Below are positions 12,456-14,203 of a DNA stretch of 29,720 bases, one piece after another. The position numbers and the translations under genes are program-made. The notes below the pieces were generated by a model that was not told the origin of the DNA, did not search any database, and was given only the letters and a program-made list of their open reading frames with translations. Every line of letters starts with the position of its first letter. The first letter of the stretch is position 1. The DNA is from a virus, in the IMG/VR virus record IMGVR_UViG_3300002835_000788, positions 1 through 29,720 of that record; one strand, 5' to 3'.

Positions 12456-12622
12456 TTGGCCACCGCCTTCGCCAGCCCCCAGAACGCCCGCGCCTGGTGC
12501 TGCTCGGCGTAGAGGCGCACCTCTGCCGCTCGGATGGCGTGCGCGCGATCCTCGACACGCACGATGCGCTCGAACAGCCAGTCTCCGATGATGGCGCGCG
12601 CCTGCTTTTCGTCTGCGTTCAT
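12452..12622 (-). CDS. Small hypothetical protein (56 aa)
   Basis: A short open frame fits tightly between the HTH gene and the primase gene: its ATG at 12622 overlaps the HTH stop (ATGA) and its stop overlaps the primase GTG (GTGA). The protein is charged and probably helical throughout (MNADEKQARAIIGDWLFERI, later AEVRLYAEQHQARAFWGLAK). It has no Cys, signal peptide or membrane segment. The double coupling strongly supports that it is translated. Function unknown; a replication accessory protein or primase partner is possible from context. Confidence 0.7.
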   Translation of the reverse strand: MNADEKQARAIIGDWLFERIVRVEDRAHAIRAAEVRLYAEQHQARAFWGLAKAVAK

Positions 12623-12792
12623 GGTCGCGCCTCCAGATAGGCGCTCAGCGCCACCAGCGTCGCGTGCTTCGGGTTCGCGTTCACCCCGTTTCGGATGCGC
12701 GCGATCGAGTTGACGTGCAGCCCCGTCGCCTCGGCCACGATGTCGAGCCGCCGATCAGCGAGCCGTTCCTTGATTTCTTCGAGCGTCAACAT
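12619..12792 (-). CDS. Cro/C1-type (XRE) helix-turn-helix regulator (57 aa)
   Basis: The protein is a minimal HTH domain. Residues 17-36 have the helix-turn-helix pattern DIVAEATGLHVNSIARIRNG, with LVALSAYLEAR as the final helix. Minimal XRE proteins act as Cro-like repressors on divergent promoters. A strong ribosome binding site, AGGAGG, lies eight bases before ATG 12792. It is the first gene of the leftward unit and faces the rightward early operon across a 166-base control region with inverted repeats, so autoregulation and early-gene control are likely. No larger CI-type repressor is visible in the window. Confidence 0.88.
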   Translation of the reverse strand: MLTLEEIKERLADRRLDIVAEATGLHVNSIARIRNGVNANPKHATLVALSAYLEARP

Positions 12793-12871: not shown

Positions 12872-12906
12872 TTGTCTTCGACAACGGGAACGCACTCGCG
12901 TAGAAA
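12872..12906 (+). promoter_or_regulatory. Candidate early rightward promoter with overlapping inverted repeat
   Basis: TCGACA (12879-12884, five of six -35 consensus bases), a 16-base spacer and TAGAAA (12901-12906) form a plausible sigma-70 promoter. The -35 box is part of the inverted repeat TTGTC-TTC-GACAA (12872-12884), so a bound protein would block it. Transcription from here would start near 12913, just before the shared leader block at 12921-12944. It would drive the whole early operon. Confidence 0.45.
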
Positions 12907-12958
12907 CAACACATCGCCCAAACGGAATTACCCGACCGAGGCGAAGAAAGACCGAACC

Positions 12959-13165
12959 ATGATGCTCGCAGCCGCTCCCGCCGAACTCTTCCCCGTCCGC
13001 GTTGCCGCCATCGCTTCCGCTCGTGATGCGCGCCGCGCCGCGAGTGAGGCGGTCGCGAACCGCAAGGACGATTCCAATATCGCTGAGCTTATGAAGGCGT
13101 TTTACGATGCGGTTGATGCGGAATGCTCGGCGCTCGGCATCAAGTTCGACCGCGGCGGGCGCTGA
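12959..13165 (+). CDS. Small early protein (68 aa), unknown function
   Basis: The first gene of the rightward early unit. Two adjacent start codons, ATG 12959 and ATG 12962, are possible. An in-frame ATG at 12872 lies upstream but falls within the promoter region, and the residues it would add look non-coding. The protein is alanine-rich and helical (ARDARRAASEAVANRKDDSN), with a second helix carrying AELMKAFYDAVDAECSALGI. No known domain is recognised. First genes of phage early operons are often host takeover or anti-defence factors, but this is position only. Confidence 0.65.
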   Translation: MMLAAAPAELFPVRVAAIASARDARRAASEAVANRKDDSNIAELMKAFYDAVDAECSALGIKFDRGGR

Positions 13166-13175
13166 CCGCCACCCC

Positions 13176-13254
13176 AGCCCCGCCCCATGAGGGCGCGCAA
13201 CGCTCGATGCGTTGGCGGGGCTCTGCCTCAACCCGAATGACCGGACCGAGGCGA
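13176..13254 (+). ncRNA. Structured leader RNA element, copy A
   Basis: Outer stem AGCCCCGC (13176-13183) pairs with GCGGGGCT (13215-13222). Directly inside is CCCATGAGGG (13184-13193), then four bases, then inner stem CAACGC (13198-13203) with loop TCGAT and return GCGTTG (13209-13214). Seven bases after the outer stem begins the block AACCCGAATGACCGGACC (13230-13247), followed by a purine-rich run to ATG 13268. The second copy at 13432 has the same plan with different, still complementary, stems. It lies in the leader of the 50-residue gene. The role is probably cis-regulatory; I do not recognise it as a known riboswitch class. Confidence 0.75.
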
Positions 13255-13267
13255 GAACGAGACGACC

Positions 13268-13420
13268 ATGAACTTTGACGACAACGACCTCACCGCCCTT
13301 GAACTCAAGTGGAACGCCAACCCAGACGATCCACGCACGTGGGTTGTGATGGACTTGCTTCACGACCTTTTGAGGGCACGTGAAGAAATTAAGCGGCTCA
13401 AGGAGACCGCAAAGGAGTGA
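13268..13420 (+). CDS. Small early protein (50 aa), unknown function
   Basis: The frame begins MNFDDNDLTALELKWNANPD and ends in a charged helix, RAREEIKRLKETAKE. It is acidic at the start and probably a short helical or coiled-coil protein. It is bracketed by two structured leader elements, and its stop codon TGA lies in the loop of an intrinsic terminator. A ribosome translating to the stop would disturb that hairpin, so its translation could influence readthrough into the recombination genes. The purine-rich leader just before the ATG resembles that of its neighbours. No family recognised. Confidence 0.68.
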   Translation: MNFDDNDLTALELKWNANPDDPRTWVVMDLLHDLLRAREEIKRLKETAKE

Positions 13421-13432
13421 CCCTCCTTTTTT
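13411..13432 (+). terminator. Intrinsic terminator or attenuator overlapping a stop codon
   Basis: AAAGGAG (13411-13417), loop TGACC and CTCCTTT (13423-13429) form a perfect seven-base stem followed by further T residues; the T-run spans 13427-13432. The loop contains the stop codon of the 50-residue gene. The last T is the first base of the outer stem of the second leader element. As a moderate terminator inside the early operon it could act as an attenuator, with the adjacent RNA elements governing readthrough. Confidence 0.75.
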
Positions 13433-13512
13433 GCGCAGCCCATGAGGGAAATGCGGGGCTCGATGCCCCGCCTGCGCACCCCGACAAACCCGAATCACCG
13501 GACCAGTCGGAG
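13432..13512 (+). ncRNA. Structured leader RNA element, copy B
   Basis: Outer stem TGCGCAG (13432-13438) pairs with CTGCGCA (13472-13478). CCCATGAGGG (13439-13448), four bases, and inner stem GCGGGGC (13453-13459) with loop TCGAT and return GCCCCGC (13465-13471) fill the inside with no unpaired bases on the right. Eight bases later begins AACCCGAATCACCGGACC (13487-13504), identical to copy A at 17 of 18 positions. The stems differ from copy A yet pair perfectly, so base pairing is what is conserved. It forms the leader of the Sak4-like gene (ATG 13526). Confidence 0.78.
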
Positions 13513-13525
13513 CAAGGACAATCGA

Positions 13526-14203
13526 ATGGCAATCAGCATCAAACGCACCCGCGAAGCGCACGCGAACGGGGTCAAGCTCCTCGTCTTCGGCGCGGCTGGC
13601 GCAGGCAAGACGAGCCTTATCCGCACGCTCCCGAACCCCATCATCATCAGCGCGGAGGCCGGTCTCCTCTCGCTCGTCGGCGAAGACCTGCCGTACGTCG
13701 AAGTGTCGAGCATGGCGACGCTGCGCGAGGCGTACGAGTGGCTTGCAGGCTCTGACGAGGCGCGCGGCTTCGAGTCGGTCGCCGTCGACAGCATCTCGGA
13801 GATCGCCGAGGTCGTGCTGAACTACGAAAAGAAGATCGCCAAAGACCCGCGCCAGGCCTACGGGGCCATGCAGGAGCAGATGACAGACCTCATCCGCGCC
13901 TTCCGCGACCTGCCAGGCCGGCACGTCTACATGTCCGCGAAGCTGGAGAAGTCCACCGACGAGATGGGCAAGGTCTTCTACGCGCCGTCGATGCCCGGCA
14001 ACAAGACCGGCCAGCAGCTGCCCTACTTCTTCGACGAGGTGCTCGCACTCCGAGTCGAGAAGGACGCCGACGGCGTGCCGCAACGCGCGCTCATGGCGCA
14101 CCCGGACGGCCTCTGGACGGCGAAGGACCGCTCGGGGCGCCTCGACGCGTGGGAGGCGCCGGACCTTGGCGCGGTCATCCGCAAGATCGGGGGTGCATCG
14201 TGA
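13526..14203 (+). CDS. Sak4-like RecA-fold ATPase / recombination protein
   Basis: The 225-residue protein is a phage ATP-binding protein of the AAA_24 type. Walker A is GAAGAGKT (22-29), and the Walker B-like segment FESVAVDSISE has its Asp near 88. QMTDLIRAFRDLPGRHVYMS and YFFDEVLALRV are typical of the family. Sak4 proteins are RecA-core single-strand annealing recombinases that act with an SSB; here a DUF669 protein is encoded three genes on. I chose ATG 13526, with AAGGA about seven bases upstream and after leader element B, over in-frame starts from 13442 that run through that element. The stop overlaps the next GTG. Confidence 0.87.
   Translation: MAISIKRTREAHANGVKLLVFGAAGAGKTSLIRTLPNPIIISAEAGLLSLVGEDLPYVEVSSMATLREAYEWLAGSDEARGFESVAVDSISEIAEVVLNYEKKIAKDPRQAYGAMQEQMTDLIRAFRDLPGRHVYMSAKLEKSTDEMGKVFYAPSMPGNKTGQQLPYFFDEVLALRVEKDADGVPQRALMAHPDGLWTAKDRSGRLDAWEAPDLGAVIRKIGGAS

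Follow-up and report, generated by a model that had tools for sequence, protein, structure and literature searches.

The closest described counterparts of the RNA element reported here are the model substrates and tRNA-like targets of bacterial RNase P, which include acceptor/T-arm minihelices, the tRNA-like domain of tmRNA, mascRNA (a tRNA-like RNA released by RNase P), the C4 RNA of phages P1 and P7, and sites in polycistronic mRNAs. The determinants used by the bacterial enzyme are a 12-bp rod reaching from the T-loop to the cleavage site, the pair G1-C72, and G53, A58 and G71; D73-C74-C75 of the substrate pairs with GGU of RNase P RNA, and hairpins comprising the acceptor and T arm alone are cut (PMC11143913). 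Polycistronic mRNA and the P1/P7 C4 RNA are among the RNAs on which RNase P acts (cited in PMC11143913). Two further systems invite comparison: the put RNA of phage HK022, a cis-acting structured RNA of a phage early operon that folds as two stem-loops, ~70 nt in all (PMC9378689), and the integron attC site, a folded element past the stop codon of exchangeable small genes.

We analyzed 29,720 nt of the IMG/VR virus record IMGVR_UViG_3300002835_000788 (the window), in which an early operon carries two copies of a structured RNA, element A, and three copies of a further hairpin, B. The covariance model for A is R1 and that for B is R2. The relevant features, with positions of A numbered in the tRNA register adopted below, are as follows.

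12619..12792, minus strand: Cro/XRE-like regulator, divergent from the early operon (PHROG 18104, E 4e-15)
12878..12906, plus strand: weak sigma-70-like promoter of the early operon, TCGACA-17-TAGAAA (by inspection; the strict scanner does not pass the site)
12914..12944, plus strand: hairpin B copy 0, with no A ahead of it (R2 match 12912-12946, 41.9 bits, E 4.7e-10)
12959..13165, plus strand: accessory gene 1, an ORF of 68 aa (one of 12 unrelated families upstream of A)
13176..13222, plus strand: element A copy 1, 5+7 bp stack; G1 = 13177, C72 = 13221, N73 = 13222 (R1 match, 51.1 bits, E 3.9e-8)
13224..13253, plus strand: hairpin B copy 1 (R2 match 13222-13256, 20.4 bits)
13268..13420, plus strand: accessory gene 2, an ORF of 50 aa
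13411..13432, plus strand: terminator-like hairpin AAAGGAG-TGACC-CTCCTTTTTT (by inspection; fold -10.9 kcal/mol; no scanner call)
13432..13478, plus strand: element A copy 2, 6+6 bp stack; G1 = 13433, C72 = 13477, A73 = 13478, with C74-C75 at 13479-13480 (R1 match, 75.2 bits, E 1.5e-13)
13481..13510, plus strand: hairpin B copy 2 (R2 match 13479-13512, 26.0 bits, E 1.2e-4)
13526..14203, plus strand: Sak4-like ssDNA annealing ATPase, the conserved gene 3' of A-B (PHROG 124, E 4e-53; Pfam AAA_24)

The operon order is weak promoter-like site, B0, gene 1, A1-B1, gene 2, A2-B2, Sak4-like ATPase. Related phage genomes keep the gene order, with the Cro/XRE-like regulator divergent from the early operon, and a close relative (L125/L038) has TTGACA-17-TAGAAC in place of the weak promoter of the window.

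In copy 1 of element A the outer stem (AGCCCCGC, 13176-13183, with GCGGGGCT, 13215-13222) encloses CCCATGAGGG (13184-13193), then CGCG, then the inner hairpin CAACGC-TCGAT-GCGTTG (13198-13214); in copy 2 an outer stem of different sequence (TGCGCAG, 13432-13438, with CTGCGCA, 13472-13478) encloses the same CCCATGAGGG (13439-13448), then AAAT and GCGGGGC-TCGAT-GCCCCGC (13453-13471). A preliminary description of this DNA had reported these copies as an unrecognised structured RNA, each upstream of an early gene, in which pairing is selected and sequence is free. Both are read directly at those sites and their predicted folds are as earlier drawn (z -2.9 for copy 1 and -3.4 for copy 2, against dinucleotide shuffles); each precedes an early gene in the window layout, and Rfam holds no such family. 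Selection on pairing was likewise confirmed. Across 21 distinct variants, the covariation score was 0.318 versus 0.078 when shuffled, none of 500 shuffles scoring as high, and sliding the partner strand left every register at or below 0.068. The alignment was padded with N (plain MAFFT misplaced the junction); pairing percentages in the padded alignments of A and B are therefore partly by construction, and it is the slid and shuffled controls that constitute the evidence. Eight pairs changed on both sides, five in the outer stem and three in the inner. Outer stem types include GCGCAG/CTGCGC, GCGCGG/CCGCGC, GCACCG/CGGTGC (with a G-U intermediate) and GCCCCGC/GCGGGGC, and about three stem types are independent. 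Both loops are invariant among the 21 variants while the stems vary; what is fixed in the element is about 19 bases of the loop region, the stems being free. From these sequence comparisons we conclude that pairing of the stems is under selection; it is apparently on the mRNA strand that the constraint acts, as the wobble pairs there lean to RNA (two G-U versus one A-C).

An exact scan of IMG/VR with the loop pattern (CCCATGAGGG, 4-14 bases, GCTCGATGC) retrieved 41 contigs. The outer and inner stems are present in 38 of these related phage contigs, all metagenomic fragments, which together hold 44 copies of A and the 21 variants, distinct over the core; the homologues with covarying stems that the preliminary description proposed to seek are thus at hand. 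The remaining three (L005, L052 and L074), with the loop pattern and without stems, were rejected as carriers. R1 also found A in seven loci besides the window that had been fetched through the neighbouring ATPase rather than through the loops; the same two loops occurred every time, and no copy with free loops was seen in the loci examined. A relaxed viral pattern with a shorter first hairpin returned 89 stretches and no further member, and the 24 exact loop-pattern matches in GTDB genomes all lacked stems, as expected of chance, so that no bacterial A was found. Most relatives whose ATPase is 74-89% identical are without A. Element A is restricted to one phage clade, and within it solely to the early operon. 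Rfam had no match at the gathering threshold, for A or for B, either in the window or in ten loci that bear B or are related; permissive scans gave chance-level matches only, one weak tRNA-like lead (below) excepted, and both elements are undescribed in the open-access literature searched.

Without exception A comes after the stop codon of an exchangeable small gene, a codon starting 16-25 bases before the CCC hairpin of A, and ahead of the next cistron; downstream follows B, or directly the next gene, usually the Sak4-like ATPase and otherwise another small gene. In two loci (L082 and L109) no B follows, so B is not needed by A. Among A-bearing phages with a readable upstream gene, the ORFs ahead of A measure 49-102 aa and form at least 12 clusters without detectable similarity; neither accessory gene of the window matches Pfam or PHROG, and neither was placed in a family. 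One upstream gene may be followed by different stem types (L068 versus L079; L054 versus L111), so the element does not go with either neighbour. Anti-host or anti-defence genes are likely to be found in the slot ahead of the ATPase (window 12959-13420; also L002-L202). Two observations concern its contents. In L123 (1115-1408; also L004, L061 and L078) the accessory ORF starts ILFHGTN...LTDDRRIAAEYG, which we take to be reminiscent of ADP-ribosyltransferase-like proteins; Pfam gave no significant match. Three different small ORFs upstream of A in L006, L033 and L082 share the C-terminal RAASFDDAEFVAAGAY, as if from intragenic recombination.

A folded element at the border between so many unrelated small genes and a conserved ATPase, with structure conserved over sequence, might be a DNA-level, single-strand recombination site used to exchange the accessory genes, in the manner of integron attC. 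We consider this very improbable: inspection found no core sites (GTTRRRY/RYYYAAC) at the ends of A, no recombinase or integrase was seen nearby, the stem type is independent of the neighbouring gene, and wobble pairs on the mRNA strand lean to RNA not only in A but also in B (about eight G-U versus one A-C).

Relatives without A show what may take its place. In L129, whose ATPase is 88% identical, the site of A is occupied by a sigma-70 promoter, followed by the same CACCCCG (with its ACC) and B. In L153 and L140 a terminator-like hairpin called by the scanner lies just 5' of the ATPase with no promoter call between, and in L128 terminator-like hairpins precede two B copies (by inspection). 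As such hairpins stand before the ATPase or B, the operons of these relatives probably need read-through, and a separator of some kind between accessory gene and ATPase is probably common among them; a real tRNA was not found at the site of A in any relative. Two loci deserve separate mention: L128 (5410-5990) has two near-identical terminator-like hairpins, GCCCGC-TCCTCTCACGAGG-GCGGGC, at the site of A, with a B-like hairpin after each, and L140 (553-950) and L149 have tandem promoter-B units in which the second B has a CAG/CTG inner stem, a terminator-like hairpin abutting the ATPase.

The hairpins in L128, L140, L149, L153 and L160 thus share with A its site between accessory gene and ATPase, and A could itself be an insulator, which would block 3' exonucleases or serve as a terminator or attenuator for the accessory gene with partial readthrough. 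The occurrence of terminator-like hairpins at this site with no promoter before the next gene (L153 and L140; twice in L128) accords with such a role, as does a T-run hairpin just 5' of A in the window and in L201. Unlike the relatives' hairpins, however, A has no U-run, ACCCCG coming next, and has two invariant loops that a terminator does not need; moreover, the T-run hairpin and A co-occur in the window, and we regard an insulator as improbable. A strictly intrinsic terminator was rejected: such a terminator is a G+C-rich hairpin with a U-run after it, whereas A is followed by ACC or TCC and has no U-run. In the window the terminator-like hairpin (13411..13432) overlaps the stop codon of gene 2 and abuts A copy 2; this T-run hairpin at the upstream stop codon (window 13409-13436; L201 3030-3061) can extend into the 5' strand of A (CGCAAAGGAG...CUCCUUUUUUGCG), and the two could be competing structures in both phages.

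The preliminary description had joined to the stems of A, across 7-8 bases, an 18-base block. The two blocks (13230-13247 and 13487-13504) do agree at 17 of 18 positions; they are nevertheless the core of hairpin B, to which those intervening bases also belong, and A and B are two elements with different distributions. Nor does the count of two hold beyond A, since B has a third copy in the window (12914-12944), without A and near the weak promoter-like site. In B, an outer stem of 5-7 bp leads through a short, A-rich internal loop to an inner stem of 3 bp, capped by a 4-6 nt loop whose first base is A; in the window the outer pairings are (T)GCCTC/GAGGC(G) and CCGAC/GTCGG, and the inner stem they enclose is CCG/CGG. 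The stems covary strongly, and the inner stem with them (CGG/CCG, CCG/CGG, CTG/CAG, CAG/CTG, TGA/TCA and TGC/GCA), with a covariation score of 0.79 versus 0.155 shuffled in an alignment hand-padded to the structure, plain MAFFT again misplacing the junction. Of 70 leaders of related ATPase genes, 44 contain B according to a sequence-aware descriptor that accepts 0.03% of shuffled leaders, and several of its misses are near-misses by eye; R2 gave 62 matches in 81 sources, all on the operon strand. In dozens of phages, isolates among them, B opens the early mRNA: it normally comes 7-10 nt past a sigma-70 promoter and ahead of the first early gene's ribosome-binding site. It was matched by the covariance model in the Manatee Spring phage genome MW202867 and seen by eye in Idiomarinaceae phage 1N2-2 and Salicola phage CGphi29, where the ATPase follows it and a small gene the size of a regulator diverges from it. 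It also occurs in L275-L278, as a leader hairpin of Sak4-type phages. A DNA operator was rejected for B: both sides of its internal loops are rich in A on one and the same strand, and its G-U pairs exceed A-C by about 8 to 1.

These positions bear on two functions proposed in the preliminary description. To a small riboswitch nothing points. A put-like antiterminator, acting on RNA polymerase and formed by A or by A and B together, would suit an operon in which internal terminator-like hairpins imply readthrough, and B lies directly 3' of promoters, as putL does. By position, then, the likeness holds for B and fails for A, which is intercistronic: in the loci read, the promoter-proximal leader has no A, A comes after rather than before the terminator-like hairpins, and its three-way junction differs from the two stem-loops of put, to which no sequence relation was seen. 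Even at a distance from any promoter, moreover, B keeps its place immediately 5' of the ribosome-binding site, suggesting a role at the level of the cistron. Antitermination by either combination strikes us as quite unlikely.

A different comparison emerges when A is aligned with tRNA, a likeness that is new relative to the preliminary description. The outer and inner stems would stack into a 12-bp rod resembling an acceptor/T-arm, capped by a G-CUCGAUG-C loop and ending N73-C-C. This register was chosen after the data were seen. Counted from position 60 in the loop to where the outer stem ends, the 3' strand measures 12 nt in 22 of 22 tabulated contexts; as in tRNA, the inner and outer 3' strands adjoin with no unpaired base, and the length stays constant while the junction shifts between 6+6 and 5+7 bp. 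All 12 pairs are perfect in 21 of the 22, the remaining one having a single A-C mismatch. G1-C72 and G71 are present in all 22, although, with about three independent stem types, this invariance weighs less than 22 observations suggest. C74-C75 follows the stack in 21 (ACC 17, TCC 3, GCC 1; TCT 1), N73 being A in 17, U in 4 and G in 1; a full ACCA occurs in two copies, both without B following. Compared with the T-loop consensus G53-UUCRANY-C61, the loop of A matches at G53, U55, C56, G57, A58 and C61 and differs in having C54 and G60 for U54 and Y60; these two bases could pair, leaving a UCGAU pentaloop unlike a true T-loop. D-loop GG, anticodon arm and variable loop are absent, and one invariant 10-nt hairpin, CCCAUGAGGG, with 3-4 nt, is all that lies between outer and inner stems in place of the D and anticodon arms. 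A thus shares the rod, G1-C72, G71, N73-C-C and gapless 3' strand of RNase P targets, and differs from them also in sitting between exchangeable phage cistrons and in being missed by tRNA models. ARAGORN called no tRNA in A, and since A lacks both the arms and recognition by tRNA models, we do not class it as a tRNA. Applied to A by itself, mode tests gave negative or junk results. A permissive cmscan of one variant against 4227 Rfam families placed mascRNA-menRNA first (14.9 bits, E 0.49, gathering threshold 42.5), with two tmRNA fragments also listed; because the same scan of window copy 2 and of the 5+7 variant L016 gave no tRNA-like match, we take the mascRNA match as a lead and not as support.

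On the strength of this geometry our best, still tentative, reading is that A is a tRNA-like RNase P target in mRNA, a punctuation element that would split the operon transcript. Cotranscribed and acting in cis between early-operon cistrons, A would fold as a minimal tRNA mimic in which the CCCAUGAGGG hairpin replaces the D and anticodon arms and may contact the loop. Host RNase P would cut 5' of G1, just past the stop codon of the accessory gene, separating accessory-gene mRNA from downstream mRNA. The latter would begin with A, or with B should a 3' tRNA-processing enzyme also cut past N73, and each downstream gene would gain a leader like those of relatives in which a promoter stands directly before B. 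The promoter found at the site of A in L129, with the same ACC and B, argues for this reading; the ACC after A, which also precedes B in promoter-type leaders, may instead belong to B.

Invariant loops presented by variable stems are also the usual pattern of protein-bound RNA, and A could be a site at which a phage or host RNA-binding protein, acting as a translational operator or as a decay or processing factor other than RNase P, reads the two loops. The loops CAUGAG and CUC(G)AUG are complementary and could form a kissing platform; the chance that two random loops form four pairs around a single bulge is 1.6%, and the loops of A never vary. No candidate RNA-binding gene adjoins A, however, the element is found with 12 gene families upstream and several genes downstream, and the constant 12-nt 3' strand and NCC would be left unexplained; we judge a protein site rather unlikely. 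Least probable of all, to our mind, is a new self-cleaving ribozyme making the 5' end of each B leader. The compact junction and two invariant loops do occupy the very spot at which a new 5' end would serve a purpose, yet about 19 fixed bases in the loop region with free stems are all that is constrained, and neither a known core (such as hammerhead CUGANGA/GAAA) nor an Rfam ribozyme match was found.

Cleavage of A by RNase P is a prediction of the favoured reading. If true, A would be the phage counterpart of tRNA punctuation: by means of a short RNA, exchangeable accessory genes could be slotted before a recombination gene with its leader intact. The more general proposition, that phages use minimal tRNA mimics (acceptor and T-arm halves, with a 10-nt hairpin for the other arms) as RNase P punctuation of an early operon, so that unrelated small genes can swap ahead of an important gene and leave its leader undisturbed, is one we put forward as possible though doubtful. 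Should the RNase P reading prove wrong, A still stands as a well-supported RNA family, hitherto undescribed and distinct from hairpin B, that marks the border of an accessory-gene slot; B, likewise undescribed, is a leader hairpin with a wide distribution that includes cultured phages.
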